From Marinibacterium profundimaris (GTDB lineage Bacteria > Pseudomonadota > Alphaproteobacteria > Rhodobacterales > Rhodobacteraceae): a stretch of DNA of 64,000 nucleotides. The stretch's first letter is position 1. The number at the start of each line of letters is the position of its first letter. The translations under genes and the position numbers were made by a program. Below the pieces are notes generated by a model. That model had not been told where the DNA came from, did no database searches, and saw only the letters and a program-made list of their open reading frames with translations. The DNA lies in assembly GCF_002210095.1 (NCBI RefSeq), contig NZ_AQQR01000009.1, forward strand, positions 1-64,000, in the 5' to 3' direction. Shown here in pieces: positions 44,732 through 64,000 of this stretch.

Positions 44732-44754
44732 ACGGACAACAGATGGAGATGACG

Positions 44755-45660: not shown

Positions 45661-45664
45661 TCCG

Positions 45665-48241: not shown

Positions 48242-48922
48242 TCAGCTAACCGTGTCGATGGCGAACTGGAACAGCGACTGGATGTGATCGGCCACCGCCT
48301 TGCGCGCGGCTTTTGCATCGCGGGCCTCCAGTGAATCGAGGATCGCCTCGTGCTGGCGTGAATCGGGTTCCAGCCGTTCCGAAAGGCGGTCGATCTCGAA
48401 CATCTTGGTGCTGGAGCGCAGGGCGTGCATCAGGTCGGTCATGACCTTGTTGCCGCAATTCTCGATAAAGAGCCCGTGCACCTCGTCGTCCGAGCGCCAG
48501 TGCGCGCGCATGTCGTAGGGGACCTGTGCCTTGACCGCATGCAGGGTGGCGCGCGCCGCCTGGATGGCCCTGGCGTCTATCCGGTCCACGCAAAGCGCGG
48601 CGGCCTCGCTTTCCAGCAATTGCCGGACCTTCAGGCTTTGCAGGTATTCGCGCAGCTCGACCTTGCGCACGTGGTAGGACCGGCTGGCGTCCTTCACCAG
48701 GAGGCCCTCGGCCTCCAGCTTCTGCAGGGCCTGGCGCAAGGGGGTCCTGGACACGCCAAGCTCGTTGGCCAGGTGCTGTTCCACCACAGCCTGCCCGGAG
48801 ACCAGCCTGCGCTGTTCGATCATGGTCGAGAGCGCCGCGTAGGCCTGTTCCGAAAGTGTACCGGTCCTGCCGGACGGAGGGCTATCGGGGTCTGGCGCGA
48901 GGGTATGGGTCAGCTTCGTCAT
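48242..48922 (-). CDS. GntR/FCD-family regulator (paralogue 1)
   Basis: 226 residues. N-terminal winged helix: LSEQAYAALSTMIEQRRL, VVEQHLANELGVSRTPLRQAL; C-terminal FCD domain with metal/ligand residues in WRSDDEVHGLFIENCGNKVM and DSRQHEAILDSLE. Roughly 70 percent identical by eye to the protein at 58462. Divergent from the M20/ABC/PTE operon with twin GTATAC operators between, so it probably controls it. Confidence 0.92.
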   Translation of the reverse strand: MTKLTHTLAPDPDSPPSGRTGTLSEQAYAALSTMIEQRRLVSGQAVVEQHLANELGVSRTPLRQALQKLEAEGLLVKDASRSYHVRKVELREYLQSLKVRQLLESEAAALCVDRIDARAIQAARATLHAVKAQVPYDMRAHWRSDDEVHGLFIENCGNKVMTDLMHALRSSTKMFEIDRLSERLEPDSRQHEAILDSLEARDAKAARKAVADHIQSLFQFAIDTVS

Positions 48923-49047
48923 GATCGGTGTCTTTCGTCCCCGTTCCGGCAAACATGGTCACGCATAAAAAACGGGCACTGGCACGGGCCCAGGGCGGTT
49001 TCGGGCCGCCCTCTCATGTATCCCGAAAGGAATCTATTGCGTTCTGT

Positions 49048-49078
49048 CGGTATACGATGGTGAATGAGTTGTATACCG
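49048..49078. promoter_or_regulatory. Inverted repeat CGGTATAC-N15-GTATACCG (GntR operators)
   Basis: Perfect 8-base arms; each arm contains GTATAC (49050 and 49071), 21 bases apart on the same helix face. Short palindromes around GTNTAC are typical of FadR/FCD GntR regulators. The site lies 27 bases before the M20-like start and between the two divergent genes. Confidence 0.7.
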
Positions 49079-49105
49079 TTGGTGCGCAACGAAAGGACCC
49101 GACTG

Positions 49106-50395
49106 ATGAATGACGCAACCTCCCCTCAGGGCAGAACCGAAAGTGCCATCGCCTTTCTGCGCGAGCTGATCGCGGCCCAGGTGGACGGAGAAGCCGCGGT
49201 ACAGGCCGCGATCGGCGCGCGGCTGGCCCAGGCGGGATGTGACGTCAGTCATCATGACTACGACCCGGCCAAGGTGCCGGTGAAAGGCGAAATCGACGCG
49301 GCCAATGGGGCGACCGGTCTGCGCGGTGCGGTCGTGGGCGAGCTTGCCGGGCAGACGGATCTGCCCAGCCTGCTGATCTTTGCCCATCCCGACGGCGAAC
49401 CGGTGACCGACGCGGACCAATGGACACATGATGCCTTTGCCGGCGAGATTGACAATGGCCGGTTGCATGGCTGGGGTGTCGCAGACGACCTTGCCGGCTG
49501 CGCCGCGGCGGTCCTGGCGGTCGAGGCCGCGGCGGCCAGTGGTCAGCCGATGGGGCGGGTGGTTTTCGCCTCGACCCCATCGAAGCGCTATGCGCGCGGG
49601 GTTGCGGCGCTGTTGCACGACGGGCTGCGGGCGGATGCGGCGCTTTACCTTCACCCGGCGGAATCCGGTGTCGGCATGCGCGAGATCAAGGCGCTGGCCT
49701 CGGGCCACGTGGAATTCACCATCACCGTCAAGGGCCAGGCGCCCGACACGACCGAGCCGGGGCATACCGCCTTTTCGCATTTGTCGGCCAACCCGGTGAA
49801 CAAGGCCTTCCTGGTCTACACCGCTCTCATGCAATTGGCAGACGACCGCGCCGCGCGCGTGCGGCAGCCGCAAATGGAGGCGCGGGTCGGCCGGGCGACC
49901 AACCTGCACATCTCGCGGATGCAGTGCGGCGACATGCGCAAGTTTGGCCGCATCCACGACGAATGCATCATGGGCGGCGCGCTGTCCTTTCCGCCCGGCG
50001 AAACGCTGGCCGAGATATGTGCCGAGGTCGAGGGCGCCGTTGCCAGGGCGGCACAGGCCGACGACTGGCTGCGCGACAATCCTCCGGTGGTCAAATGGCT
50101 GACCGGTGTGACCGGCGCCCATGTCCCCGAGGACCATCCGCTTTACCAGGTCACCGCCCGCGCTGTCGGCGCGGTCACCGGCGAGGCGCCTTACGTCAAC
50201 GTGATGCACACCTCTTCCGATATCCGCAATCCGCCCGTCGAGGCGGGCATTCCCTGCGTCGCCTTCGGCTGCCTGTGTGGCGACCTCAGCCAGAACGAGA
50301 AGCGCGACGAATGGGTCGATGTGGATGACTTCCTGCGCATGGTCGATGTCACCACCCGGGTGGTCACCGACTGGTGCAGCGGACGGCAAGACTGA
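49106..50395 (+). CDS. M20-family metallopeptidase-like protein with altered catalytic motif
   Basis: 429 residues. FAHPDGEPV (His94, Asp96) and GWGVADDLAGCAAAV are the first metal-binding motifs of M20/ArgE/DapE amidohydrolases; ALYLHPAESG and VMHTSSDIRNPP may supply further ligands. Where the family has the catalytic Glu-Glu, this protein reads FASTPSKRYARG (about 154-164). So either it uses another base or it is not a standard hydrolase. ATG 49106 has AAGGA upstream; the frame opens at 49064. First gene of the operon. Confidence 0.8.
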   Translation: MNDATSPQGRTESAIAFLRELIAAQVDGEAAVQAAIGARLAQAGCDVSHHDYDPAKVPVKGEIDAANGATGLRGAVVGELAGQTDLPSLLIFAHPDGEPVTDADQWTHDAFAGEIDNGRLHGWGVADDLAGCAAAVLAVEAAAASGQPMGRVVFASTPSKRYARGVAALLHDGLRADAALYLHPAESGVGMREIKALASGHVEFTITVKGQAPDTTEPGHTAFSHLSANPVNKAFLVYTALMQLADDRAARVRQPQMEARVGRATNLHISRMQCGDMRKFGRIHDECIMGGALSFPPGETLAEICAEVEGAVARAAQADDWLRDNPPVVKWLTGVTGAHVPEDHPLYQVTARAVGAVTGEAPYVNVMHTSSDIRNPPVEAGIPCVAFGCLCGDLSQNEKRDEWVDVDDFLRMVDVTTRVVTDWCSGRQD

Positions 50396-50464
50396 GTTCA
50401 CCCAAACAGAGGGCCGGTCAAGCGGCCCCGCCCCCTCCCGAATGTTCCATCAGAGGAAAAAAAT

Positions 50465-51313
50465 ATGAAATACAATATACTAACCGGAACGGCGCTGGCC
50501 ACCGTGATCACCCTGGCTGCCGGCGTCGCCGCACAGGCACAGGACTGCCCGGCCGATCTTCCGCTTGTCGAGGACGGCAAGCTGACCATGTCGATCAACG
50601 CGACCATTCCGCCGAAGCAGTATATCGATGCCGACGGCAACCTTGCCGGTCTGCACAAGGACATGGGCGACGAGATCGCCAAGCGTCTGTGCCTTGAGCC
50701 GGTCTATCAGAACGTCGATTTCGCCGTGCAGATCCCCGGCCTTGATGCCGACCGCTGGGACATGATCAACACCGGCCTGTATTTCACCGACGAACGCGCG
50801 GGCTTCATGCAGCTGGTGCCCTATTCGGTCAACGCGCTGGCCCTGATCGCGGCGGCGGACAACCCCGAAGGCTTCGCCGGGCCCAAGGATCTTGCCGGAC
50901 ATCCGGTGGGTGTCGAGATCGCCGGGTTCGAAGAGAAGAAGCTGAACGAAATCAACGATGCCCAGGTGGCCGAAGGGCTGGAGGCGATGGATATCCGCGC
51001 CTTCAACACCTACGGCGAAGTCTTCCTTGCGCTTGGCGGCGGTCAGATCTCGGCGGTGTTCGCGGGCGATGCGATCGGCTCCTACTACCAGGAAAAGGGC
51101 CAGTTCTCGAAGGCCGCGACCGGTCTTTATCCCGGCACGCCCGGCGCCTTTGCCTTTGATGAACCGGCGCTGGCCCAGGCCGTGGCGGATGCGCTGAACG
51201 CGATGAAGGCCGACGGAACCTATGACGAGATGATGGATGCATATGGCACCACCAAGATCGACGTCTGGGACCGCTGGCCGGGTGAATTCACCTATTTCTA
51301 CACCGGCGACTGA
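50465..51313 (+). CDS. Polar amino-acid-type ABC binding protein
   Basis: 282 residues; signal peptide to AQAQ near residue 25. KLTMSINATIPPKQYIDADGNLAGLHKDMGDEIAKRL is a SBP_bac_3 start, with GLYFTDERAGFMQLVPYS following. Periplasmic receptor for the permease and ATPase downstream. Ligand unknown; operon content suggests a nitrogenous organic acid. Confidence 0.92.
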   Translation: MKYNILTGTALATVITLAAGVAAQAQDCPADLPLVEDGKLTMSINATIPPKQYIDADGNLAGLHKDMGDEIAKRLCLEPVYQNVDFAVQIPGLDADRWDMINTGLYFTDERAGFMQLVPYSVNALALIAAADNPEGFAGPKDLAGHPVGVEIAGFEEKKLNEINDAQVAEGLEAMDIRAFNTYGEVFLALGGGQISAVFAGDAIGSYYQEKGQFSKAATGLYPGTPGAFAFDEPALAQAVADALNAMKADGTYDEMMDAYGTTKIDVWDRWPGEFTYFYTGD

Positions 51314-51383
51314 GGCTTTCCGGAACGCTTGACGAAAAGACGGGGGGGCCACGCCGGCCACCCCGCACCGGGAAGGAGAGAGA

Positions 51384-52115
51384 ATGTCCTGGAGTTGGGA
51401 TCATTTCATGCAGTTCCTGTTCAGCCCCTACATGCTGAACGGGGTCTGGACGACGATCTGGCTGTCGATCGTCGCGATGCTGATCGGCTGTTCGCTGGGG
51501 GCCATGCTGGCCTTCATGAAGATGTCGAAAACCTGGATCCTGCGGCAGATCGCGAACACCTACATCTGGATCTGGCGCGGCACGCCGCTGCTGGTGCAGA
51601 TGGTCATCATCTATACCGTGCTGCCCAAGGCCGGCATAAAGCTGGGCGTGATCGAAAGCGCCATCATCGCGCTGTCGCTCCACGAGGCCGCCTATTTCGC
51701 CGAGATCGTCCGCTCTGGCATCACCTCGGTGAACAAGGGGCAGGAAGACGCCAGCCTTGCGCTTGGCATGACCTGGCCGCAGCGTATGCGCTATGTCATC
51801 GTTCCCCAGGCGACGCGCGTCATCATCCCGCCGCTGGGCAACCAGTTCAACCTGATGATCAAGACCACCTCGCTGGCTTCTGTCATTTCGATGGAGGAAC
51901 TGTTCCGCCGGACACAGCAGATGGCCCAGCTCGAGTTCAAGGTGCTCGAGGCCTACATGTGCGCGGCCTGCTGGTACCTTGTGATGACCACGCTCTGGGG
52001 TCTGATCCAGAAACGGCTCGAGGCTCATTACGACCGGCCCTTCGGTCCCGCCGCGGACACGGACGAGCGGAAGAAGCCCGACCCGGTCCTGTCCGGCCAG
52101 GCCGCCCAGGTGTGA
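51384..52115 (+). CDS. Polar amino-acid ABC importer permease
   Basis: 243 residues, about five membrane segments. [33 protein letters not shown] and the EAA-type loop [23 protein letters not shown] are HisM/GlnP features. Only one permease gene is present, so it probably works as a homodimer. The C-terminal tail of about 25 hydrophilic residues is longer than usual. Confidence 0.93.
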
Positions 52116-52131
52116 GATGGAGGACAAGGAT

Positions 52132-52953
52132 ATGAGCAACATGGAAAACGAAGTTCGTCCCGTGGCCAGGGCCGGGATGCGCGATCTTGGCCCGCCCATC
52201 GTCGAGATCCGGAACGTCGAAAAACGCTTTGGCAACGTGACGGTGCTGAAGGACGTCAGCCTGACGGTCCGCACGGGCGAGGTCGTCGTGATCGCCGGGC
52301 GTTCGGGGTCGGGCAAGTCGACCCTGCTGCGCTGCATCGACCATCTCGAAACCATCGAGGGCGGCAGCATCCATGCCTGCGGCGAGAACATGGGCTATCG
52401 CCAGGACAGCGGCGGCAAGCGTACTCTGCTGGGCGACCGCAGGACCGCCCGGCAGCGGCGCAACATGGGCATGGTGTTCCAGTCCTTCAACCTGTTTCCG
52501 CATCTGAACGTGCTGAGGAACATCACCCTGTCCCCGATCCGGATCATGGGCGAGGACCGGAAGACCGCCGAGGCCCATGCGCACGAGCTTCTGGCGAAGG
52601 TGGGGTTGCCCGAAAAGGCCGACGCCTATCCCAGCCAGCTTTCGGGCGGTCAGCAGCAGAGGGTGGCGATTGCCCGGGCGCTGGCGATGCGGCCGCAGGT
52701 GATGCTGTTCGACGAGCCGACCTCGGCGCTGGATCCGGAAATGATTTCCGAGGTGCTGGACGTGATGATCGACCTCAGCCGGCAGGGCATGACGATGATC
52801 GTGGTCACGCACGAGATGGGCTTTGCCCGGGCCGCGGCCGACCGCGTGCTGATGATGGCCGATGGCATGATCGTCGAGGAAGCGCCGCCCGAGGAATTCT
52901 TTACCAACCCGCAGAGCGAGCATACCAAGCTCTTCCTGTCGAAGATCCTCTGA
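52132..52953 (+). CDS. Polar amino-acid ABC importer ATPase
   Basis: 273 residues. Walker [11 protein letters not shown]-loop [14 protein letters not shown], signature [15 protein letters not shown], Walker [13 protein letters not shown], switch [12 protein letters not shown] 52132 is preferred because GGAGGACAAGG precedes it; ATG 52117 would add five residues. An N-terminal extension of about 25 residues precedes the ATPase fold. Confidence 0.95.
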
Positions 52954-52965
52954 GGGGGAGATCGC

Positions 52966-53988
52966 GTGATCAGAACCGTTCTGGGCGACGTATCTTCGGA
53001 TGCGGTCGGGCCGATCCTGCTGCACGAGCACCTGCTGTTCGATATCGTCCCGCCCGGCACGACGGGCGACCGTCAGGCGCAGATCCGTGCCGAAGACCGC
53101 TGGCAGATCGATTACCGCGCCAACGAATGCGCCGCGAACGCGCTGCAAACCGATGTCGGCATCGCCGCGGCCGAACTGGACCATTACGCGGCGGACGGCG
53201 GCAGCCTGCTGGTGGATCAGTCGATCTTCGGTCTGGCCCGCGACCCGGAAGGGCAGGCCAGGGCGTCACGGCAAAGCGGCGTTCACGTCGTCGCGGCGGC
53301 GGGCACCTATGTCGAGGCCTATGTGCCCGACGATATCAGGGCCCTGTCGTCCGGGGCGCTGGCCGACCGGTTCACCGCCGAGGTGACGGAGGGCATGGAT
53401 GGCACCGACATCCGCGCAGGGCTGATCGGCGAAATGGGATGTTCCTGGCCGATGACGGCGTTCGAGCGCCGCGCGCTTGAGGCCGCCGCCGAAGCGCAGC
53501 AGCGCACCGGCGCCTCGATCAGCGTTCATCCCGGCCGACACGAAACCGCCTGCGCGCAGGTGCTCGACATTCTTGAAGGCGCGGGGGCCGACCTGGGCCG
53601 GGTCGTGCTGTGCCACATGGACCGGACGCATCCCGACGGCAGCGGCATCCCCGCGCTGCTGGAACGCGGTGCGGTGGTCGAGTGGGATTTCTTCGGCGTC
53701 GAATCCTCGCATTACTGGATGACCGACGAGGTCGAGCTGCCCACCGACCTTGGCCGGCTGCGCCTGATCCGCGACCTGGCGGACCAGGGCTTTGGCGATC
53801 AGATCGCACTATCACACGACATTTGCACCAAGACCCGCCTGCGCCACTGGGGCGGGCACGGCTATGGCCACATCCTGCGCAATGTCACCACTCTCATGGA
53901 GCGGCTGGAGTTTGCTCCGCCGCTCGTCGCCGCGCTTCTGCGCGATACCCCCCTGCGATTGCTGAATTTGAAGGAGACCCCGCAATGA
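52966..53988 (+). CDS. Phosphotriesterase (PTE)-family metal-dependent hydrolase
   Basis: 340 residues, TIM barrel. LLHEHLLFD gives the HxH ligands, LIGEMGCSWP an acidic bridging residue where classical PTE has carbamylated Lys, ISVHPGRH and VVLCHMDR two further His, and ALSHDICTK the last Asp. Such proteins are usually lactonases or amide hydrolases rather than true phosphotriesterases. GTG start 52966 behind GGGGGAG. Its stop overlaps the DapA-type start by four bases. Confidence 0.9.
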   Translation: MIRTVLGDVSSDAVGPILLHEHLLFDIVPPGTTGDRQAQIRAEDRWQIDYRANECAANALQTDVGIAAAELDHYAADGGSLLVDQSIFGLARDPEGQARASRQSGVHVVAAAGTYVEAYVPDDIRALSSGALADRFTAEVTEGMDGTDIRAGLIGEMGCSWPMTAFERRALEAAAEAQQRTGASISVHPGRHETACAQVLDILEGAGADLGRVVLCHMDRTHPDGSGIPALLERGAVVEWDFFGVESSHYWMTDEVELPTDLGRLRLIRDLADQGFGDQIALSHDICTKTRLRHWGGHGYGHILRNVTTLMERLEFAPPLVAALLRDTPLRLLNLKETPQ

Positions 53989-54878
53989 CCCGTTTTCGCG
54001 GCACTTTTTCCGTGATGGTCACGGCCTATGATGATGCGGGCAATTTCGATCCCGCCCGCATGGCGCGTTACACCGACTGGCAGGTGACCGAAGGCATTCA
54101 CGGGCTGATCCCGCTTGGGTCGACCGGCGAATTCCTGTCGCTGGACAAGGCAGAGCGCGAAGCCGTGGCGCGCTGTGTCGTCGACACCGTGGCGGGCCGG
54201 GTGCCGGTGCTGCTGGGCGCGGGGGCCGAACGCACGGAAGACGTGATCGAGAACTGCCGCATGGCCGAGGCCGTGGGCGCCGACGGGGTGATGATCATCC
54301 CGCCCTTCTACTCGACCCCCACCGAGGACGAGCTTTACCGCCATTACGCGCGGATCAGCGAAGCGACCGACCTGCCGATCATGCTGTACAACAACCCGGC
54401 GACGGCCAACGTGGACCTGACCCCGCCCATCGTGGCGCGCCTGTCGACGCTGAAGGGTGTGGACTACATCAAGGAAAGCACGATGGACGTGACCCGGGTG
54501 CGCGACATCATCGACCTGTGCGGCGACCGGATGACCGTCTTTGGCGGGATCATGGGCTTTGAAAGCTTCGTCAACGGGGCGCAGGGCTGGGTTGCCGTCG
54601 GATCGAACATCCTTCCGAAGGATTGCGCCCGGCTCTTTACCCTGACCGCGGATGCGCAGGATTACGACGAAGCCCGCGCGCTCTACAGGAAGATGCTGCC
54701 GGTGATCCGGCTGGTGGGCGGGCATCGCTATGTCTCGGCCACCAAGAAGGCGCTGGAGCTGATGGACCTGCCGACCGGCGATCCGCGCAGCCCGCGCCTG
54801 CCCTTGCCGGAGGCGGATATGCCCGAGCTTCTGGCGGCGCTTGAAGCGGTGGGGTTGGTGCATCTGGCAGAGGCCTGA
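53985..54878 (+). CDS. DapA/NAL-family (dihydrodipicolinate synthase-like) lyase
   Basis: 297 residues, TIM barrel class I aldolase. PLGSTGEF (substrate carboxylate loop), LYNNPATANVDLTP (Tyr) and YIKESTMDV with the Schiff-base Lys near residue 161 are intact. The family adds or removes pyruvate-like 2-oxo acids or deaminates related compounds. In this catabolic setting a retro-aldol cleavage or deamination of a 2-oxo acid is more likely than lysine biosynthesis; inference from neighbours. Confidence 0.9.
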   Translation: MTRFRGTFSVMVTAYDDAGNFDPARMARYTDWQVTEGIHGLIPLGSTGEFLSLDKAEREAVARCVVDTVAGRVPVLLGAGAERTEDVIENCRMAEAVGADGVMIIPPFYSTPTEDELYRHYARISEATDLPIMLYNNPATANVDLTPPIVARLSTLKGVDYIKESTMDVTRVRDIIDLCGDRMTVFGGIMGFESFVNGAQGWVAVGSNILPKDCARLFTLTADAQDYDEARALYRKMLPVIRLVGGHRYVSATKKALELMDLPTGDPRSPRLPLPEADMPELLAALEAVGLVHLAEA

Positions 54879-54882
54879 GCCA

Positions 54883-57705
54883 ATGCAGTTCCACTGGAAC
54901 GGCGCCTCGATCGACGCGCGGCCCGGCGACAGCATCGCCGCCGCCCTGACGGCGGCGGGCGTGCGCAAGCTGGGTGCCGGTTGCACTGGCCAGGACAGGG
55001 CGATGTTCTGCGGCATGGGCGTGTGCCAGGACTGCGCGGTCCAGGTCGACGGACAGGTGGGGCAACTGGCCTGCATGACCAAGGTCAGGCCGGGCATGGA
55101 TGTGCGCGCCCAGGATGACCTGACAACCGCGCCCGCGCATTGGGACGGCAACGCTGCCCTGCCGCGCGCGGTGAAGGTGGACGTGGCCGTGATCGGTGCG
55201 GGCCCCGCCGGTTTGCGGGCCGCCCTGCTTCTGGTCGGGTCCGGGGCGCGTGTTCTGGTCCTGGATGAGCGTGATGCCACGGGCGGGCAGTATTTCAAAC
55301 CGCGCAGCGATGGCTTTCGGCATGGAACCCCGAAAGACGCCCAGCACCGCGCGGGCGATGCGCTGCGCGCTTCGGTCACGGCTGCGGGGGTCGAGGTCGT
55401 CCACGGCCAGACGGTTTGGCATGCGCGCGGGGGCAGGGGCTTCACCTTGCGGTCGCATGGCGCGGATGGCGATCTGTCGATCACCGCGCGCGCCGTTCTG
55501 CTGGCCACCGGCGGCTACGAGATACCCGCGGTGGTGCCGGGCTGGACCGGGTCCAACGTTCTCAGCATCGGTGGCGCGCAGACCCTTGTGCGGCGCTACG
55601 GTGTCCTGCCGCCGGGGCCGGTTCTGGTGGCAGGGCAGGGGCCGCTTGGCTGGCAGCTGGCCGATGAGATCCTGCGATTGGGCGGACAGGTCGCCGCCGT
55701 GGTGGAACGCGCGGCCCTGCGCCGGCCCGGCGCGGTTCTGAGCGCGGCCATGCAATCGCCCGGGCTGATCGCGGCGGGGCTGGGTCAAAGACTGCGTTTC
55801 GCGCGGGCCGGTGTTCCGGTGTTGACCGGCTGGGAGCTGGCCGGGATTTCCGAGGATGGAGCAATCGTGCAGCCCGTTGCCGGCGGCGCCACCCGGACGA
55901 TCCGGGCGCGCACGGTGTGCATCGGGGCCGGTTTCGCGCCACAGATGGAACTGGCGCGGCTGATGGGGGCCGAGCTGGTCGCGGGCAAGGGCCATGGCTG
56001 GCCGGTGCCGCGACGCGACGAGGATGGCACCACCTCGGTTCCGGGGCTTTGGATTGCCGGTGACGCTGGCGGCATGGGCGGGGCGCCCGCCGCCGAGGCG
56101 CAGGGCGCGCTGGCGGGCGCGGCGATCGCGCGGTTTCTGGGTCTTAGGCCGCCCGCGGTTTCGGCCGCGCCTCTTCACCGTGCGCAACGGTTCCAATCCG
56201 CGCTTTGGGCCTTGTTCGATGCACCGCCGCCAAAGCCGCCCGCCGACAGCGCCATGGTCTGCCGGTGCGAGGCGGTCACGGCAGGCGCGCTGCGCCGCTG
56301 CATTGCCGAAGGGGCCCGTGATCCCGGCGCCCTCAAACGCGAAACCCGCATGGGCATGGGGCGGTGCCAGGGGCGATATTGCCTGCCCGTGGCGCTTCGG
56401 CTGCTGGCGGATGCAGAGCAGCCGCAATCGCCCGAACGGCTGTTTGCACCGCAACTCCCTGCCAAGCCGGTCTCGGTCTCGGCGCTGGGGATCGAAAAGC
56501 CGGAATGGGGCGGCCACCGCGAAAGCGCACCGGCGGCCCGGCCCGGATCGCCGCCCGACACACCGCTGCATCAAGACAGCGCCGATCTTGTTGTCATTGG
56601 CGGCGGCATCACCGGCATTTCCGCCGCGCTTTTTGCCGGAAGGCAGGGCGCAAACGTCACCGTGCTGGAGCGTGGCTGGCTCAATGCCGAGGCCTCGGGC
56701 GGCAACGCGGGGAGCCTGCACCTGCAACTGCTGTCCTGGGACTTTGGACAAAAGGCGGTGGGCGGCGGCGACCTGCAACTGCGGACACTGCCGCTTCAGC
56801 AGGAATCCATCGCGCTCTGGGCCGAGCTGGAGCATCAGCTTGGCGCGGATTTCGAGATGACCACCTCCGGCGGCCTGATGGTGGCGGAAACCGAGGCGCA
56901 GATTCCCTTCCTTGAACAGAAGGCGCAGTCCGAAGCCCGGTTCGGCATCACGACCGAGATCATCGGCCCCGACCGTCTGCGCCAGATCGCGCCAGGGATT
57001 TCGCCGCGCATGGTGGCCGCGGCCTGGTGCCCGGGCGAGGGCAAGATCAATCCGCTTGCGGCCTCGCGGGCCCTGGTGGCCGAGGCACGCGCGCAGGGCG
57101 TCTGTTTCGAAGAACAGGCACCGGTCACGGGCATTGCACGCGCGGGCGACGGCTATGAGATCACGACGCCGCGCGGCACGGTCCGTGCGAAGCGTATCGT
57201 CATCGCGGCGGGCGGTTGGGCGTCGCAACTGGGCCGGATGCTGGGCGCGGACATCCCGGTCAAGGGCGCACCGTTGCAGATGGTGGTGACCGAACGCACG
57301 GCGCCGGTTCTGCCCTGCCTCGTGGCCCATGCCGACCGGCACCTGACCATGAAACAGACCCGCGCCGGCACCGTCCTGATCGGTGGCGCCTGGACGGCCG
57401 AAACCGGGCCGGGCGGCCAGTCGCGCGTTCTGCCCGAAAGCCTTGAGGGCAACCTTTGGGTGGCGGCGCGCACGGTTCCCGCGGTCGGCGGCCTGCGCGT
57501 TCTGCGCAGTTGGGCCGCGATGAACATCGACATTGACGGCGCGCCGCTGATCGGCCCTTTGCCGGGTCATCCCGGCGTCACGGTCGCCGCCACCGCCAAC
57601 GGTTACACCCTTGGCCCGCTGATGGGCCGCGAAGTGGCGCAGGCCGCTCTCAACGGCACCATGCGGCAGGACATCGCCGCATTCACCTTCGAACGTTTCA
57701 ATTGA
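54883..57705 (+). CDS. Three-subunit HcnABC/opine-oxidase-type dehydrogenase fused in one chain
   Basis: 940 residues. Residues 1-90: [2Fe-2S] domain with Cys43, Cys48, Cys51 and Cys64, as in HcnA. About 98-455: pyridine-nucleotide-disulfide-type flavoprotein, VIGAGPAGLRAALLL and GQGPLGWQLADEIL, as in HcnB. About 458-515: BFD-like [2Fe-2S] with Cys460, Cys462, Cys495 and Cys500. Pro-rich linker about 520-565. About 567-940: DAAO/GlyOx-type flavoprotein, VIGGGITGISAALFA and INIDGAPLIGPLPG-like end, as in HcnC. Relatives oxidise glycine, opines, D-hydroxyproline or sarcosine-like secondary amines at the membrane. ATG 54883 stands five bases after the lyase stop. Confidence 0.9.
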   Translation: MQFHWNGASIDARPGDSIAAALTAAGVRKLGAGCTGQDRAMFCGMGVCQDCAVQVDGQVGQLACMTKVRPGMDVRAQDDLTTAPAHWDGNAALPRAVKVDVAVIGAGPAGLRAALLLVGSGARVLVLDERDATGGQYFKPRSDGFRHGTPKDAQHRAGDALRASVTAAGVEVVHGQTVWHARGGRGFTLRSHGADGDLSITARAVLLATGGYEIPAVVPGWTGSNVLSIGGAQTLVRRYGVLPPGPVLVAGQGPLGWQLADEILRLGGQVAAVVERAALRRPGAVLSAAMQSPGLIAAGLGQRLRFARAGVPVLTGWELAGISEDGAIVQPVAGGATRTIRARTVCIGAGFAPQMELARLMGAELVAGKGHGWPVPRRDEDGTTSVPGLWIAGDAGGMGGAPAAEAQGALAGAAIARFLGLRPPAVSAAPLHRAQRFQSALWALFDAPPPKPPADSAMVCRCEAVTAGALRRCIAEGARDPGALKRETRMGMGRCQGRYCLPVALRLLADAEQPQSPERLFAPQLPAKPVSVSALGIEKPEWGGHRESAPAARPGSPPDTPLHQDSADLVVIGGGITGISAALFAGRQGANVTVLERGWLNAEASGGNAGSLHLQLLSWDFGQKAVGGGDLQLRTLPLQQESIALWAELEHQLGADFEMTTSGGLMVAETEAQIPFLEQKAQSEARFGITTEIIGPDRLRQIAPGISPRMVAAAWCPGEGKINPLAASRALVAEARAQGVCFEEQAPVTGIARAGDGYEITTPRGTVRAKRIVIAAGGWASQLGRMLGADIPVKGAPLQMVVTERTAPVLPCLVAHADRHLTMKQTRAGTVLIGGAWTAETGPGGQSRVLPESLEGNLWVAARTVPAVGGLRVLRSWAAMNIDIDGAPLIGPLPGHPGVTVAATANGYTLGPLMGREVAQAALNGTMRQDIAAFTFERFN

Positions 57706-57718
57706 TGAAAGGCACAGA

Positions 57719-58141
57719 ATGACCAAACTGAAGATCAAGGCCGGCCCCTATACCTTTGACGCCGTCCTGGAAGAGGAGGCCGCGCCGCAGACCTGCGCCG
57801 CCTTCCGCAAGCTGCTCCCCTATAAAAGCCAGGTGGTGCATGTCCGCTGGAGCGGCGAGGGCGTCTGGATTCCGCTGGGCGAGCATGACTTCGGCGTCGG
57901 CTATGAAAACCACACGTCGCACCCGGCACCGGGCCATATCATCCTGTACCCCGGCGGCATCTCTGAGACCGAGATCCTGCTGGCCTATGGCGGTGTCGAT
58001 TTCTCTTCCAAGATGGGCCAGCTTGCGGGCAACCACTTCATCACCCTCACCAGCGGGCATGAGAACCTGATGAAACTTGGCAATCTGACCCTTTGGGAAG
58101 GGGCGCAGGACGTCACGTTCGAACTGGCGCCCGACGCCTGA
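57719..58141 (+). CDS. DUF3830 family protein (cyclophilin-like fold)
   Basis: 140 residues. EEEAAPQTCAAFRKLLPYKS, VHVRWSGEGVWIPLG and GHIILYPGGISETEILLAYGG, then LAGNHFITLTSG match the DUF3830 family as I know it. Function is unknown; the fold resembles cyclophilin-like proteins and members often sit beside hydantoinase, M20 or ABC genes. Here it ends the GntR-flanked operon, 13 bases after the fusion enzyme. Confidence 0.85.
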   Translation: MTKLKIKAGPYTFDAVLEEEAAPQTCAAFRKLLPYKSQVVHVRWSGEGVWIPLGEHDFGVGYENHTSHPAPGHIILYPGGISETEILLAYGGVDFSSKMGQLAGNHFITLTSGHENLMKLGNLTLWEGAQDVTFELAPDA

Positions 58142-58461
58142 AGCAGGACAGGCGGCCCGGTCGGGCCCGGGGTTTCGGAAATCCCGGGTCCGGCCGGGGA
58201 CACCCGCGCGGGACGGTCTTAACCCGGTGGCAAGGGAGAGGCGCGGAGGCCGGTCAGTTTCCGTGCAGGCGCGCGGCATGCAGGGCTGTGCGGTCCAGCT
58301 TTGCCGGACCTGCGGTATCCGGTTAGAATACCGTCGATGTCCGGACGTGCGCCGCCTGGCCGAACCGGATTTACCGATGCCTGCCGCCGGGGCACCGCAA
58401 ACAGAGACCCCGGGGCCCGTCACCGGCTTTCACGGGCGAACATAGTTGGAATAATGATGTC
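58142..58461. other. Promoter region of GntR paralogue 2 with CGGTAT-N9-ATACCG dyad
   Basis: 320 bases without a gene. The dyad at 58313-58333 uses the same half-sites (CGGTAT and ATACCG) as the operator at 49048 but with arms drawn together by 10 bases, about one helical turn. This suggests cross-binding by one or both GntR paralogues. Confidence 0.5.
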
Positions 58462-59130
58462 ATGACGAAACAGCCGCCTTCCTCGGACCTCGCGGTGCCG
58501 CAGCGTCGGGGCACGTTGGCGGATCAGGCTTACGCCGCGATCTCGACGATGATCGAACAGCGCGACCTTTCCGCCGGAAGCGTGATCGTGGAGCAGCAGA
58601 TTGCCGACCTGCTGGGTATCTCACGCACCCCCTTGCGCCACGCCCTGCAGCGACTGGAATCGCAGGGCGTGCTTGTGAAGTCGGCCAACCGGTCCTTCCA
58701 GGTGCGCAAGGTCGAGTTGCGGGAATACCTGCAAAGCCTGAAGGTCAGGGAGCTTCTGGAAGCCGAGGCCGCGGCGCTGTGCGTGAACCGGGTCGATCCG
58801 GCGGCCATCGCACGGGCGCGTCAGACGTTGCACACCGTGAAAGAGCAGCAGCCCTACGACATGCTGGCCCATTGGCGGTCGGATGACGAAGTGCACGGGC
58901 TGGTGATCGAGAACTGCGGCAACCGCGTCATGGCCGACATGCTCCATGCCCTGCGCGCCAGCACCAAGATGTTCGAGATCGACCGCCTTGCGGAACGACT
59001 GGAGCCCGACACCCGCCAGCACGAGGCCATCCTAGACGCGCTGGAAGCCCGCGATGCCCGGCTTGCGCACGAGGCGATGGCCGGCCACATCCGGTCCCTG
59101 CTTCAGTTTGCGATCGAGACGGTGTCATGA
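58462..59130 (+). CDS. GntR/FCD-family regulator (paralogue 2)
   Basis: 222 residues. Nearly the same architecture as the protein at 48242, including identical runs such as RKVELREYLQSLKVR and AHWRSDDEVHGL. Winged helix VVEQ-like part reads VIVEQQIADLLGISRTPLRHAL. It ends the M20-to-DUF3830 region and is convergent (10 bases) with the DUF6282-type gene of the second importer operon. Confidence 0.93.
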   Translation: MTKQPPSSDLAVPQRRGTLADQAYAAISTMIEQRDLSAGSVIVEQQIADLLGISRTPLRHALQRLESQGVLVKSANRSFQVRKVELREYLQSLKVRELLEAEAAALCVNRVDPAAIARARQTLHTVKEQQPYDMLAHWRSDDEVHGLVIENCGNRVMADMLHALRASTKMFEIDRLAERLEPDTRQHEAILDALEARDARLAHEAMAGHIRSLLQFAIETVS

Positions 59131-59140
59131 TCTCCTTTGC

Positions 59141-60103
59141 CTAGGATCCGACCCTGAACAGCGCTGCAGGGGTCTCGCCGGTCATGCGCCGAAGCGCCTC
59201 GCGCGTCAGGCCGCAGCTTTCCAGCAGCAAGAGGAACTCTCGCAGCCCTTCGACCGGCGGCGGCAGGAGGAACACGCCGCAATCCCCCGAAAGCACCACC
59301 TTGTCCACCGGGGCGGACCGGATGAGGGCGACCATTTCGGGCGCGCTGACCGGGGGCACGGTGTTGCGGGCGGCGTCCACATGGGTCAGCCCGGTCTGGG
59401 TGGCGTGGCTGGCGAAGAAGAACGAAAATTCCACATGCGCGCCCATCCCGGCCAGTTCGGCCACGGTCGCGGCGTCATAGTGGCTGGCAGGCACGAGGAG
59501 ACGGGTGACACCACGGGCGCGCGCCGCGTCGACCATGCGCAGCGCCTCTGCCGCGCTCAGGTGGCCGGTGTTCAGCACCACGTCGGCCTCGGCCACCAGG
59601 TCGAGGATCTCGGGCAGCGGGTCGGGCAGAGGGCCGCTCTCGGGGATGGCGAGGCAGCGCGCGATGTGGTCCTCGGACCGGTTTTCCAATCGCGCAATGT
59701 GGCGGGTGTGATGGGTGGGCAGCGAGATGAAGCGCGCCCCATCGCCCGGCGCGCCATAGCCCAGCTTCAGCGCGACGCGCACGGCCTCGGCACTGATGCC
59801 GCCGGCGGGGGGTTCCATGATCAGCCCGCCGAAGACCTCGACGCCCAGGTGCCCCAACTGGCGATTGGCCAGCGCGGCAAGGCCCGAGGTATTGGCGAAA
59901 TTGTCCATCAGGCCAATGGCGCGCATGCCGGCGGCGGCGGCCATGCGGGTGGCCTCGAACACGTCAATCGAGCGGTGGTTGATATGCGGGCAGGCATGCA
60001 CATGCCCGTCCACCGCGCCGACCAGCAGGTCAGCGCCGGGCAGCCGGGAAGGCAGATTTGCGGGCAGCCCCTCAGTGGCGCAGGATTTTTCCGACGAAGT
60101 CAC
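59141..60103 (-). CDS. Amidohydrolase-like protein (DUF6282 type)
   Basis: 320 residues. VDGHVHACPHINHRSIDVFEATRMAAAAGMRAIGL has the HxH metal motif of amidohydrolases; SLPTHHTRH, LNTGHLSAAEALRMVDAA, VPASHYD and VLSGDCGVF supply further possible ligands. Resembles the DUF6282 family, of unknown substrate. GTG 60103 is chosen because AAAAGGAGAG stands right before it; this overlaps the ATPase gene by 32 bases. Last gene of the second amino-acid importer operon. Confidence 0.8.
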   Translation of the reverse strand: MTSSEKSCATEGLPANLPSRLPGADLLVGAVDGHVHACPHINHRSIDVFEATRMAAAAGMRAIGLMDNFANTSGLAALANRQLGHLGVEVFGGLIMEPPAGGISAEAVRVALKLGYGAPGDGARFISLPTHHTRHIARLENRSEDHIARCLAIPESGPLPDPLPEILDLVAEADVVLNTGHLSAAEALRMVDAARARGVTRLLVPASHYDAATVAELAGMGAHVEFSFFFASHATQTGLTHVDAARNTVPPVSAPEMVALIRSAPVDKVVLSGDCGVFLLPPPVEGLREFLLLLESCGLTREALRRMTGETPAALFRVGS

Positions 60104-60809
60104 GGGTTCTCTCCTTTTCGGGGGCATCGAAGATCTGCGCGGGCGAGCCGAGCTCGACCACCTTGCCGTCGGCCATGAAGGCGACGCGGGCGCTGATTTC
60201 GCGGATGAAGCCCATCTCGTGGCTGACGATCAGCATGGTCATGCCGTCTTCGGCCAGGCCCCGGATGGTATCGAGCACCTCGCTGACCAGCTCGGGGTCG
60301 AGCGCGGCGGTCACCTCGTCCAGCAGGAGGATTTCGGGCTTCAGGCACAGGCCGCGCGCGATGGCGACCCGCTGCTGCTGGCCGCCCGAAAGCTGGTCGG
60401 GGTAGCTGTTTATCTTGTCGGCCAGCCCGACCTTGGCCAGAAGATGCTCGGCTTCGGGGCGAACATCCCTGGGCTTGCGGCCGCGCACCTTGGTGGGCGC
60501 GATCATCACGTTTTCCAGCACGGTCAGGTTCTGAAACAGGTTGTATTGCTGGAACACGATGGCGGCGCGGTCGCGCAACCGCCGGATCTCGGCGGGCTTG
60601 TCGAAGTTGATCGGCTCGCCGCCCACGCGGACCTGGCCCGCCTCGGGTTTGAGCAGCCCGGTCAGCACCCGCAGGATCGTGCTCTTGCCCGATCCGGAGG
60701 GGCCGATCAGGCCGACGGTTTCACCTGAGCCGACCGAGATGTCGATCCCGTCGAGCACCCGCAGTTTTCCATAGGCGGCGCTGATGTTATCGAGTTCGAG
60801 ATGAGCCAA
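60072..60809 (-). CDS. Polar amino-acid ABC importer ATPase (second system)
   Basis: 245 residues. Walker A GPSGSGKST, Q-loop VFQQYNLFQNLTVLEN, signature [15 protein letters not shown], Walker B ILLLDEVTAALDPE (Val instead of the usual Pro after Glu), switch VSHEMGF. Overlaps the permease gene by 23 bases. Confidence 0.94.
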   Translation of the reverse strand: MAHLELDNISAAYGKLRVLDGIDISVGSGETVGLIGPSGSGKSTILRVLTGLLKPEAGQVRVGGEPINFDKPAEIRRLRDRAAIVFQQYNLFQNLTVLENVMIAPTKVRGRKPRDVRPEAEHLLAKVGLADKINSYPDQLSGGQQQRVAIARGLCLKPEILLLDEVTAALDPELVSEVLDTIRGLAEDGMTMLIVSHEMGFIREISARVAFMADGKVVELGSPAQIFDAPEKERTRDFVGKILRH

Positions 60810-61461
60810 GTTTTTTCTCCAGTTTCGCGCCGAGGCGGGACAGGGGGTAGGACAGCATGAAATAGGCGACGAGGATCACCCCAAAGGACACGCCCGCGGA
60901 AAAGCCGCGGTTGTTGAAGACCTTGCCGACATAGGTGAGCTCGATCACCCCGATCTGCGAGGCCAGCGCACTGTCCTTGATGAAGAGGATGAAGAAACCG
61001 AAGGCCGGCGGCAGGATCACCGTCCAGGCCTGCGGCAGCACCACGTAGCGGATGGTCTGCAGCAGCGTGAAGTTCATCGTCTCGGCGGCGTGCCACTGGT
61101 TGGGATGCACCGATTGCAGCCCGGCGCGCACGATCTCTGCCAAAAAGGCGGTGCCGATCAGCACGACGGTCACGCAGCCCACCGTGAAGGTCGAGACATC
61201 GAGCCCGCTGAACTGGAAGATGAAGAAACACAGCATCAGCGTGACAAGGAAGGGCACGCGGCGGAAGAATTCGGTGAAGACCAGCGCCAGCGCCCGCAGG
61301 GGCAGGGTGAGCGGCCCGGTCGTCAGCCGCGCCACGGCCAGCGCGGTGCCGAAGAGCCCGCCAAGGATGCAGCCCAGGGCCGACAGCGCGAAGGTGGTCG
61401 CCATGCCCTTGAGCAGGAAGATGACGTTGTAATAGGTGAGAAGATCGGCCAGTTCGCTCAT
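60787..61461 (-). CDS. Polar amino-acid ABC importer permease 2 (second system)
   Basis: 224 residues, about five membrane segments: YYNVIFLLKGMATTFALSALG start, RRVPFLVTLML, and the docking loop HAAETMNFTLLQTIRYVVLPQA. The start at 61461 touches the stop of the preceding permease. Confidence 0.93.
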   Translation of the reverse strand: MSELADLLTYYNVIFLLKGMATTFALSALGCILGGLFGTALAVARLTTGPLTLPLRALALVFTEFFRRVPFLVTLMLCFFIFQFSGLDVSTFTVGCVTVVLIGTAFLAEIVRAGLQSVHPNQWHAAETMNFTLLQTIRYVVLPQAWTVILPPAFGFFILFIKDSALASQIGVIELTYVGKVFNNRGFSAGVSFGVILVAYFMLSYPLSRLGAKLEKKLGSSRTR

Positions 61462-62135
61462 CACACCACCCTCATTTTTGCGCGGAAGGCAAAGCGGCCG
61501 AACAGCGCCAGAAGCACCGAGGCGGCCAGCGTGACCACCACGTAGATCACCGCCACGATCGAAAAGACCTCGAGCGAGCGGAAGGTTTCGCTGTTGATGT
61601 TGAAGGCCCGGCCGGTCAGTTCCTCGACCCCGAAGATCGCGGCCATCGAGGTGCCAAGCGTCATCAGGATGTAGTGGTTCGACAGCGGCGGAAACAGCAC
61701 CTTGGCCACGTGCGGCAGGATCACGTAGCGGATCTGCTGCCAGCGGGAAAAGCCCAGCACCTCGGCGGCTTCCATCTCGCTCTGGCGGCGGCTTTCGAAA
61801 CCGGCGCGCTGGATCTCGGTCAGGTAGGCGCCCGCGTTCAGCGTCATTCCCAGCAGCACCGCCATGTAGGAGCTCAGGAAGATGCCCATGTCGGGCAGGG
61901 CGAAATAAAGGAAGTAGATCTGCACCAGCTGCGGCGTGTTGACGAAGAACACCACGTAGGCGTTGACCCCGTGCCGCATCCAGCCGCTGCCGAATGTCTT
62001 GACCGCGGCGCAGGCGGTGCCGATCAGCATGCCACCGCAAAAGGCGAGAAAGGCGATCTGCAGGCTGAGCCAGGCGCCTTTCAGAAGATAGGGGACGTAT
62101 GGCCAGACCTGGCCGTACTGGAAAGTATAGTCCAT
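61461..62135 (-). CDS. Polar amino-acid ABC importer permease 1 (second system)
   Basis: 224 residues. YLLKGAWLSLQIAFLAFCGG, FFVNTPQLVQIYFLYFALP and MEAAEVLGFSRWQQIRYVILP are HisQ/GlnP-type features. The two permeases presumably form a heterodimer. It lies 83 bases downstream of the binding protein. Confidence 0.93.
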   Translation of the reverse strand: MDYTFQYGQVWPYVPYLLKGAWLSLQIAFLAFCGGMLIGTACAAVKTFGSGWMRHGVNAYVVFFVNTPQLVQIYFLYFALPDMGIFLSSYMAVLLGMTLNAGAYLTEIQRAGFESRRQSEMEAAEVLGFSRWQQIRYVILPHVAKVLFPPLSNHYILMTLGTSMAAIFGVEELTGRAFNINSETFRSLEVFSIVAVIYVVVTLAASVLLALFGRFAFRAKMRVV

Positions 62136-62218
62136 CGATTACCCGTATGTGGCGGTCCGAAGGCAAGGCCCCCGCGGCACAGCCGGCGGGGACCCTGATG
62201 GCGCTGGGGGAGAGAGGG

Positions 62219-63037
62219 TCAGAACCAGGGCGACATGTCGACGTCGCGGATCATCGGGCGTTCGAACCACTTGACCCAGAGATCGTCGACCACGCCGTCG
62301 CGGTGCAGTTCGAAGATCGCCACGTTCAGCCAGTCTTTCAGGCCGGTGCTGTTCTTGGCGACGCCGAGCGCGCAATAGTAGATGTCGACCGGGGTCTCGA
62401 CGACCTTCCAGGCGACGTCATGCTTGTTCATGTGTTCGCCGACGAAATCCACCACGTCGAGCATCGCGTCGCCGCGGCCCTGGGCCAGCGCGCGGATCAC
62501 GTCCGGGTAGTTGTCGAGCAGCAGGACCTCGGCCTCGGGCAGGTTTTCCTCGATGAACTTCACCGGGGTGGAGCCGCGCACCTGCACCATCGTCACGTCG
62601 GAGGTGTTCAGCTCTTTCCAGTCGCTATAGCCCTTGTCCTCGGTCGTGAGCACGCCGAAGACCTCGGTATGCACCGGCAGGGTGAAGTCGATCACCTTGG
62701 CGCGTTCCGGGTTGCGGGTCATGGCGCCCATGACGATGTCGATCTTGCCGCTGGCGACGAAGGGGATGCGGTCGGGCGAGCCGACCTGCACGACTTCAAG
62801 CTCGACGCCCAGCATGTCGGCGAGTTTCTGCGAGAAATCGACGTCGAAGCCGGCGATCTGGTTGGTTTCGTCATAGATGCCCAGCGGCGGCAGGGTCGGG
62901 TTCACACCGACCTTGAGGGTGCCGGAGGACAGGATTTCATCCAGCGACCGGGCCTCTGCCGCACCGGGCAGCAGCATGGATGCGGAGAGCAGTGCGCCCA
63001 CCCCGGCGACCATCGCGCGCTTGAAAAAAGTCATCAT
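62219..63037 (-). CDS. Polar amino-acid-type ABC binding protein (second system)
   Basis: 272 residues, signal peptide with cleavage near AAEA (about 28). ILSSGTLKVGVNPTLPPLGIYDE and GFDVDFSQKLADMLGVELE are SBP_bac_3 features. First gene of the leftward operon; divergent from the [2Fe-2S]/flavoprotein pair, with a TGTATACA site in the gap. Confidence 0.93.
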   Translation of the reverse strand: MMTFFKRAMVAGVGALLSASMLLPGAAEARSLDEILSSGTLKVGVNPTLPPLGIYDETNQIAGFDVDFSQKLADMLGVELEVVQVGSPDRIPFVASGKIDIVMGAMTRNPERAKVIDFTLPVHTEVFGVLTTEDKGYSDWKELNTSDVTMVQVRGSTPVKFIEENLPEAEVLLLDNYPDVIRALAQGRGDAMLDVVDFVGEHMNKHDVAWKVVETPVDIYYCALGVAKNSTGLKDWLNVAIFELHRDGVVDDLWVKWFERPMIRDVDMSPWF

Positions 63038-63102
63038 GTGTCTGTGTTCCCTGTTTTCGGTTGACGGCGCGGTAAACTCTATTGTTCACCCTGCACTCAA
63101 TC

Positions 63103-63110
63103 TGTATACA
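63103..63110. promoter_or_regulatory. TGTATACA palindrome in divergent promoter (GntR-type)
   Basis: The GTATAC core equals that of the operator at 49048. A partial copy (CATACAAG) follows 11 bases on. It lies between the second SBP gene and the HcnA-like gene, in a position to control both. Confidence 0.55.
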
Positions 63111-63166
63111 AAACCCATACAAGTAAACAACCTTCTTGAGACAGCCAGGGGCGGGCGCTTCCAAAG

Positions 63167-63436
63167 ATGATCGAAAATGAGGCAATCCAGTTGGTCGTGG
63201 ATGGAAAACCAGTCGATTGCGTGCCCGGCCAGACGGTGGCGGGGGCGCTTCTGGCGCAGGGCATCTACGCTTTCCGCGCCTCTCCGGGCGCGGGCACACC
63301 GCGCGGGCCCTTTTGCATGATGGGCGCCTGCCAGGAATGCGCGATCGAGATCGACGGGGTGGTGCGCCGCGCCTGCCAGACGCCGGTGGCGCCGGGCATG
63401 GTGTTGCGCCTGCGCGGCGCGGGGGCGGCGGAATGA
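63167..63436 (+). CDS. HcnA-like [2Fe-2S] subunit of amine/opine dehydrogenase
   Basis: 89 residues. Cys50, Cys55, Cys58 and Cys70 (FCMMGACQEC and RRACQ) match the plant-type-like [2Fe-2S] motif of HcnA/OoxA subunits. Homologous to the first domain of the fusion at 54883. Overlaps the next gene by four bases. Confidence 0.9.
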   Translation: MIENEAIQLVVDGKPVDCVPGQTVAGALLAQGIYAFRASPGAGTPRGPFCMMGACQECAIEIDGVVRRACQTPVAPGMVLRLRGAGAAE

Positions 63437-64000
63437 GCGGCTCGCATGACGTGATCGTCGTCGGCGCGGGTCCGGCGGGTGGCGAGGCGGCTCTGGCGGC
63501 TTCGGGCGCGGGGCTGCGGGTGGCCCTGATCGACGAGGGCCCGGCGCCGGGCGGCCAGGTCTGGCGCGCGCCGCGCACCGCACAGGCGCAGGCGGCCGCC
63601 GCGCGCGATCCCGATGGCCGGCAGGGCGGGGCGTTGCGAAAGCGGCTGCGGGACGCGTCGGTCACCCTTCTGGCCGGGGCCGAGGTCTGGGATGCCGAAC
63701 CCGGCTTCGTGGTGCAGTGTCTTGCGGCGACGGGAAACCACGCGTTGCAGGCGCCGCGCCTGATCCTGGCCACCGGCGCGATGGAGCGCGTGCTGCCCTT
63801 TCCGGGCTGGACCACGCCCGGTGTCTTCGGCCTGGCCGCGGCGACCGCGATCATGAAGTCGGAAAAGACCCTGCCGGGCAAGGAGATCGTGATCGCCGGC
63901 CAGGGGCCGCTTCTGATCGCCGTTGCCGTCAAGGCGCTTGAGCTGGGTCTGCGTCCGCGCGCGATTGTCGACCGGGCGGGCCCGCGCGACTGGCTGCGCG
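63433..64000 (+). CDS. HcnB-like FAD/NAD oxidoreductase subunit (3' end outside window)
   Basis: The 189 visible residues begin MSGSHDVIVVGAGPAGGEAA, an FAD-binding GxGxxG, with GGQVWRAPR after it; LILATGAMERVLPFPGWTTPGVFG and IAGQGPLLIAVAVKALELG match the HcnB/OoxA flavoprotein. It equals the second domain of the fusion at 54883. The BFD-like Cys motif and the third (HcnC-like) gene would lie beyond the window end. Confidence 0.88.
   Translation, partial: MSGSHDVIVVGAGPAGGEAALAASGAGLRVALIDEGPAPGGQVWRAPRTAQAQAAAARDPDGRQGGALRKRLRDASVTLLAGAEVWDAEPGFVVQCLAATGNHALQAPRLILATGAMERVLPFPGWTTPGVFGLAAATAIMKSEKTLPGKEIVIAGQGPLLIAVAVKALELGLRPRAIVDRAGPRDWLR

Follow-up and report, generated by a model that had tools for sequence, protein, structure and literature searches.

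A conserved gene set of opine-like logic in Marinibacterium profundimaris, a candidate accessory route for ring-bearing N-substituted amino-acid-like compounds

The stretch of DNA analysed here (the window, 64,000 nt) is the first 64 kb of the 158-kb contig NZ_AQQR01000009.1 (C60) of Marinibacterium profundimaris. From position 48242 onwards, it carries a set of genes for the import and, as we propose, the catabolism of small nitrogen compounds. Two related regulator genes (GntR1 and GntR2) bracket an operon for an M20-like protein, an amino-acid-type ABC importer with its solute-binding protein (SBP), a PTE-family hydrolase, a DapA-family Schiff-base lyase (DapA1), a single-chain dehydrogenase (the fusion) and a DUF3830 protein; we refer to this operon as half 1. 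Half 2 comprises a DUF6282 gene, a second importer with solute-binding protein SBPb and, divergent from it, HcnA- and HcnB-type genes, and it continues beyond the window edge. All genes named in a preliminary description of the window were recovered by open reading frame listing and with Pfam and NCBIfam (Table 1). The two GntR genes on either side of the operon are indeed closely related (71% identity), but they are members of a trio rather than a pair, the third (GntR3) lying beyond the window. The ATPases of the two importers are 43% identical.

Table 1. Features of the system on contig NZ_AQQR01000009.1; entries marked "contig" lie past the end of the window
Feature	Position	Strand	Family match or remark
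GntR1 regulator	48242-48922	-	Divergent from the M20 operon; NCBIfam GntR-type models all under cut-off
Two GTATAC palindrome sites (49050, 49071)	49045-49076		Between GntR1 and the M20-like gene; candidate operator
M20-like protein	49064 (alternative start 49106)-50395	+	Pfam PF01546
SBP_bac_3 amino-acid-type solute-binding protein (SBP)	50465-51313	+	Family match
First ABC importer, permease	51384-52115	+	Family match
First ABC importer, ATPase	52117-52953	+	Family match
PTE-family hydrolase	52966-53988	+	PF02126, 2e-60
DapA1, Schiff-base lyase	53985-54878	+	PF00701, 2.5e-61
Single-chain dehydrogenase (fusion)	54883-57705	+	Pfam Fer2_4, Pyr_redox_2, Fer2_BFD, DAO
DUF3830 protein	57719-58141	+	PF12903, 4.8e-34
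GntR2, GntR/FCD regulator	58462-59130	+	Pfam GntR and FCD domains
DUF6282 protein, TIM-barrel metal-hydrolase-like	59141-60127	-	PF19799, 7e-49
Second importer, overall	60072-63037	-	
Second importer, ATPase	60072-60809	-	Family match
Second importer, permease b2	60787-61461	-	Family match
Second importer, permease b1	61461-62135	-	31% identity to the first permease and to b2; no Pfam scan of its own
SBPb, second solute-binding protein	62219-63037	-	Family match
TGTATACAA palindrome	63100-63112		Between SBPb and HcnA; candidate operator
HcnA-type [2Fe-2S] subunit	63167-63436	+	Labelled by its four-Cys motif, no family search
HcnB-type flavin adenine dinucleotide (FAD) subunit	63433-64830	+	Crosses the window end at 64000
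HcnC	64827-65945 (contig)		
DapA2	65961-66914 (contig)		
AllE-type cupin	66911-67657 (contig)		TIGR03214, 259.5 bits (cut-off 200)
GntR3	67661-68338 (contig)	-	41-43% identity to GntR1 and GntR2
HydA, hydantoinase-type	68375-69760 (contig)	-	PRK13404, 706 bits (cut-off 647); TIGR02033, 523 (393)

What had been described as an unfused HcnAB pair is the 5′ part of a triple of HcnA, HcnB and HcnC, at 63167-65945 of the contig, whose subunits are separate chains, unlike the fusion. The cupin passes the curated model for (S)-ureidoglycine aminohydrolase, and HydA passes the curated hydantoinase/dihydropyrimidinase models PRK13404 and TIGR02033 (D-hydantoinase); these memberships are predicted by score. 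The HydA proteins of an Agrobacterium vitis cluster and of Aureimonas, each encoded within a half-1 operon, share 70% and 67% identity with the present HydA, and the close relationship to the former ties the two halves together. The likeliest ring opener is HydA, which lies outside the window.

To survey conservation, an alignment of four fusions was scanned against genome contigs, and the best 80 of at least 577 confirmed loci were kept. The fused dehydrogenase is present in 49 of these 80, accompanied by a close DapA1 in 40; six of the nine fusion loci lacking a close DapA1 are pieces of less than 13 kb. We define the fusion with a close DapA1 as a core locus (n = 40, of which 10 are truncated), DapA1 thus being present by construction. 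Counts rest on tblastn, because the gene maps, which used a codon-bias filter, still miss some genes. SBP and permease each occur in 36/40 core loci, the ATPase in 26/40, GntR, according to the query used, in 25 or 26, HydA in 18, the M20-like gene in 14, DUF3830 in 10 and PTE in eight, while at least one of HydA, M20-like and PTE occurs in 29/40. SBPb was found in seven core loci, and clear counterparts of the half-2 HcnC (HcnC2) and of DapA2 in five; weak matches were counted apart (DapA2 at 30-31% in four core loci, HcnC2 at 33% in two), and counts for the second-importer ATPase (ATPb), inflated through cross-matches between importer ATPases, were not used. At the same thresholds, 16 control loci, taken around DUF3830 genes of other genomes in the class, contained none of these parts but DUF3830, itself recovered in eight. 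The association is well above that of the control loci, and the expectation that these genes travel together was borne out.

Among 248 genomes of the window's family (its own included), the fusion occurs in eight (E up to 1e-100), one of which, G323, gives a partial match. The M20-like gene is carried by five (E up to 1e-60) and PTE by those same five and no others (E up to 1e-90), and all of them also have the fusion. DUF3830 was matched in 17 genomes (E up to 1e-30), among them all seven with a full-length fusion. Given these counts and a congener (G426) in which no fusion match was found, the system is accessory and patchily distributed. Three loci (L141, L142, L143) share the order M20-SBP-permease-ATPase-PTE-DapA-fusion-DUF3830. 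In a fourth (L144), the order is M20-PTE-DapA-fusion-DUF3830, and no importer was matched between these genes; L140 is cut, and L145 has the layout with HydA. The order GntR-GntR-SBP-permease-DapA-fusion-ATPase-HydA-DUF3830 is found in Agrobacterium, Aureimonas and Rhizobium.

The fusion is one open frame of about 940 amino acids, in which the gamma, alpha and beta parts of opine dehydrogenase follow one another in a single chain. Eight Fe-S cysteines and an Arg-X-Trp motif are kept in 42/42 fusions (window, 40 core loci and L071). Arg-X-Trp has been described as a putative flavin mononucleotide motif of opine, D-hydroxyproline and archaeal proline dehydrogenases, the subunits of which are separate chains (PMC4575208). 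By homology, cysteines and motif, the fusion belongs with the flavin-containing dehydrogenases of the opine (OpnDH), D-hydroxyproline (D-HypDH) and HCN synthase family, from which it departs by not having separate subunits. In DapA1, the Schiff-base Lys and the Tyr residues are kept in 40/40 sequences. The place of Arg138 (Escherichia coli numbering) of dihydrodipicolinate synthase (DHDPS), which we take to be the residue for aspartate semialdehyde, is occupied by T in 38, A in one and V in one of the 40, and never by Arg, which rules out DapA1 as DHDPS proper.

In a different conserved cluster (L055-L089, e.g., L070, L073, L079 and L085), whose genes were named by sequence reading, HcnABC is unfused and stands with a relative of DapA (about 40%), old-yellow-enzyme-like and GcvPA/GcvPB-like genes, several short-chain dehydrogenase/reductases and a sugar-type ABC importer. 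Elsewhere in the M. profundimaris genome, two HcnB-like matches (C60:123684-125120 and C45:36828-38243) contain one in-frame stop each and may be two adjoining genes.

The nearest solved structure to the PTE-family hydrolase is 9efa, named phosphotriesterase-related protein (E 7.5e-73), and the metal site expected of amidohydrolase-like PTE/PTER proteins (HxH, Glu, His, His, Asp) is intact in 14/14 sequences. Since PTER hydrolyses N-acetyltaurine (PMC11374699) and controls N-acetyl-beta-alanine (PMC13311154), an amidase role would, by analogy, be likelier than an esterase role. The M20-like protein matches its family and keeps the first His/Asp motif and the bridging Asp. The Glu pair, which we assume to have the catalytic role, is absent in 19/19 sequences, S[TA]PSK standing in its place, and one presumed ligand Glu is swapped for His, within HPAESG (alignment to 3pfo). 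The M20 label therefore holds at the level of the family, while its reading as an ordinary amide hydrolase fails, and the missing Glu pair rules out an ordinary M20 deacylase. Because the remaining motifs are highly conserved, the protein looks remodelled rather than decayed. For the DUF6282 protein, the best of five models (pLDDT, the predicted local distance difference test, 74; the other four 48-58) predicts a TIM barrel with TatD, NagA and dihydroorotase among its nearest folds.

Both the profile and the model of the DUF3830 protein match 3kop, which has a cyclophilin-like fold; the next fold matches are to the Pictet-Spenglerase KslB (E 3.1e-4), a possible fold neighbour that we note as a lead. 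In the family, ten loci that have a closely related DUF3830 and no fusion match were read. A HydA-family gene is nearby in six of them (L171, L172, L173, L174, L176, L180; 32-63% identity), to be compared with seven HydA-family genes across the 6.15 Mb of the M. profundimaris genome, and a DapA-family gene in three (L176, L177, L178); L175 and L179 (a 3.3-kb contig) have neither within the stretch. Five further DUF3830 loci on plasmids were read, and in four of them cyclic-amide-type hydrolase genes are nearby, annotated as allantoinase, ring-opening amidohydrolase, amidohydrolase/racemase or Zn-dependent hydrolase. In a sample of the class, DUF3830 occurs in 19/190 genomes (M. profundimaris included), and 16 loci from 15 of these 19 were read. 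No paper naming DUF3830 or DUF6282 was found among openly licensed PubMed Central papers. As for individual plasmids, the haloarchaeal pHLAC01 of Halorubrum (L009) has DUF3830 beside Zn-dependent hydrolase genes, and a plasmid of Paracoccus pantotrophus (L008) has it near a Zn-dependent hydrolase gene, together with allE.

The sequence GTATAC occurs at seven sites in C60:1-82000, four of which lie in three promoter regions of the system (two at the M20 operon, one at SBPb/Hcn and one at HydA); the remaining three sit within long open reading frames. The second of the double sites (49071) falls inside the M20-like gene if the latter starts at 49064. The double site 5′ of M20 recurs in L010 and L143, GTATAC stands beside GntR genes in L003, L021 and L064, and in L023 and L032 the divergent region between SBPb and Hcn has near-matches.

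These genes form a real, conserved system of opine-like logic, for which no description was found among openly licensed PubMed Central papers, in line with the preliminary description, which knew of no characterised pathway with this gene set. The chances appear to us evenly balanced that the region of 48.2-69.8 kb of the contig encodes a single accessory system under common regulation which, along the lines of opine utilisation, breaks down small amino-acid-like compounds that bear a ring and are N-substituted; our best guess at the substrate class is an N-substituted amino acid in the form of a cyclic amide or ureide. The two family-3 ABC importers would bring the compounds in. HydA would open the cyclic amide or ureide bond, and the PTE-family enzyme, as an amidase, would remove the resulting N-acyl or N-carbamoyl group, while the M20-like and DUF6282 proteins may attack a related bond through a non-canonical metal site. 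DUF3830 would aid ring opening, e.g., by isomerising or racemising the ring. The fusion in half 1 and HcnABC in half 2 would oxidise the C-N bond beside the carboxylate to an imine, leading to a 2-oxo acid that DapA1 or DapA2 would cleave or deaminate via a Schiff base. The three GntR proteins would bind the GTATAC palindrome. This sequence of events, import, ring or amide opening, C-N oxidation and 2-oxo-acid cleavage, had been anticipated in the preliminary description and is consistent with the protein families. More tentatively, the genes could represent an undescribed, widespread route for cyclic N-substituted natural amino acids (such as lactams, hydantoins or hydroimidazolones that derive from opines or from glycation products), with DUF3830 as a new ring-acting enzyme and the M20-like protein, its active site rebuilt, as a metal enzyme of a new class; we hold this wider proposal to be possible and rather doubtful.

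Several observations weigh against the proposed catabolic system. None of HydA, M20-like and PTE is found within the stretch in 11/40 core loci, and in two genomes of the family, G321 (on a cut contig) and G341, the fusion occurs with no match to M20-like or PTE. AllE occurs in 0/40 and DUF6282 in 3/40 core loci, for which reason both may be local additions. Confidence in the DUF3830 model is intermediate (pLDDT 71). Of the six HydA-family genes near fusion-free DUF3830 genes, four are just 32-34% identical and may differ in function, and the plasmid locus L005 has no cyclic-amide-type hydrolase neighbour. In the class sample, a HydA-family gene is near DUF3830 in 1/16 loci, so that a universal pairing of DUF3830 with cyclic amidases is unsupported, and among the neighbours assigned by Pfam (46 of 68 listed proteins), no family occurs more than three times among the 25 families listed. 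As to regulation, exact GTATAC lies by GntR genes in eight of 43 rows; as the same sites and genes recur in several rows, this corresponds to 5/31 loci. The expected number is about 0.045 for each region. No site was found before GntR2 and GntR3, and the motif was picked after these promoters had been viewed; for these two reasons, the support for GTATAC as a shared operator is moderate.

It is improbable, in our estimation, that the two halves are unrelated catabolic operons that became neighbours by chance. No second solute-binding protein is present in 33/40 core loci (10/40 being truncated), and in L058, L066, L078 and L079 the second importer is present while the core is not; both points speak for independent units. 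Against this, an SBPb-type importer with HcnABC2 and DapA2 adjoins the core in L023, L027, L032, L033, L034 and L037, and the second importer with DUF6282 does so in L024 and L056, an adjacency that recurs in Acetobacteraceae and others. Furthermore, DapA2, HydA, DUF3830 and DUF6282 stand together, in this order, in L071, GTATAC sites precede both halves, and GntR3 is related to GntR1 and GntR2. The notion of a two-part system thus holds in so far as the halves adjoin in other genomes (SBPb in 7/40); that the parts would serve two different, related compounds is a suggestion.

A less remote, if still somewhat unlikely, alternative is the salvage of amino acids from cyclic ureides (hydantoins or dihydropyrimidines), in which HydA opens the ring, the N-carbamoyl group is taken off and the free D- or beta-amino acid is oxidised, no N-carboxyalkyl group being involved. 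The scores of HydA and the cupin above their cut-offs agree with it, as do the hydrolases near DUF3830 at four of the five plasmid loci and RutA-like and HyuA-type genes downstream, both under cut-off. It accounts less well for importers of the amino-acid type and for a dehydrogenase from the family of opine, hydroxyproline and HCN enzymes; among the genes of the cluster, no canonical N-carbamoylase was recognised, and the Glu pair is missing from the M20-like protein. The least probable is a trans-4-hydroxyproline pathway of importer, D-hydroxyproline dehydrogenase and DapA-type deaminase. The superfamilies for oxidation and deamination are common to both (PMC4113996), and DapA and HcnABC-type genes are present here, yet the proline racemase family (hydroxyproline epimerase, PF05544) was found in 0/40 core loci and an aldehyde dehydrogenase, the family of alpha-ketoglutaric semialdehyde (KGSA) dehydrogenase, in 2/40 (one query protein each; some loci truncated), counts on which the label of hydroxyproline pathway was rejected. 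The proline racemase family gene of M. profundimaris itself is on another contig.

The region of 70.3-80.3 kb on C60 (L090 8318-18313), past HydA, includes a RutA-like gene (under cut-off), LeuC (over cut-off), PrpB-like and caprolactamase-alpha-like HyuA genes (each under cut-off), and isochorismatase-like, hydroxyacyl-CoA dehydrogenase-like and HyuB-like genes labelled by sequence reading only. On the other side, a kinase-like gene of FGGY type, together with the binding protein, ATPase and permease of a sugar-type ABC importer, occupies 43199-48126 of the window, ending just before GntR1; these are probably a separate operon, the Pfam search having covered the permease.

The system of opine-like lines proposed here provides a context for DUF3830 and DUF6282, families without a functional one, and yields an opine-type dehydrogenase in one chain and an M20 relative whose active site has been rebuilt. 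It names ordered, testable steps for plant-associated and marine bacteria, and the inducing compound, once identified, would expose a class of nutrients that is invisible in present annotation.

Amongst known systems, the trans-4-hydroxyproline pathway (4-hydroxyproline epimerase, D-HypDH, a deaminase of pyrroline-4-hydroxy-2-carboxylate and KGSA dehydrogenase) shares the dehydrogenase and DHDPS superfamilies with the system described here and differs in the epimerase and aldehyde dehydrogenase, as counted above for the core loci. The likeness to hydantoin, allantoin and reductive pyrimidine catabolism lies in HydA, of the PRK13404 dihydropyrimidinase subfamily, and in the AllE-type cupin; unlike those routes, the present system has an amino-acid importer and a C-N dehydrogenase, and a reading of the genes at 48-82 kb, where not every frame was searched, brought to light neither dihydropyrimidine dehydrogenase nor a complete allantoin set. 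With the M20 deacylases ArgE and DapE, the M20-like protein shares the family-level match, the first His/Asp motif and the bridging Asp, and it differs from them in the Glu pair and in the ligand Glu replaced by His.

A close parallel is offered by the nopaline and octopine regions (noc and occ) of Ti plasmids and by the OpnDH systems of Pseudomonas putida and Bradyrhizobium, with which a family-3 ABC importer and a flavin/[2Fe-2S] dehydrogenase of the NoxAB/OoxAB family are shared; the Arg-X-Trp motif is common to the fusion and the opine dehydrogenases. Plasmid pTiC58 carries the importer NocPTQM, genes that are presumably NoxA and NoxB (the record reads FAD-dependent oxidoreductase) with a (2Fe-2S) partner, and an adjoining pair annotated as hydantoinase/oxoprolinase. 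A similar layout, with HyuA/HyuB-like, HcnB-like, DAO-like and aldehyde-dehydrogenase-like genes (labels mostly from reading), is present on contig C45 of M. profundimaris at 26-42 kb (L157). NocT binds nopaline and its lactam, pyronopaline (PMC4192606). The pTiC58 pair may be linked to pyronopaline, a connection that we infer, since the main text of PMC4192606 has no occurrence of hydantoin- or oxoprolinase. The noc region also has an arginase and an ornithine cyclodeaminase, neither of which was recognised among the genes read here. The fusion is 27-34% identical to the Nox/Oox halves and unites alpha, beta and gamma in one chain; compared with noc and occ, HydA and PTE take the place of HyuAB, GntR that of LysR, and a DapA lyase and DUF3830 are added.

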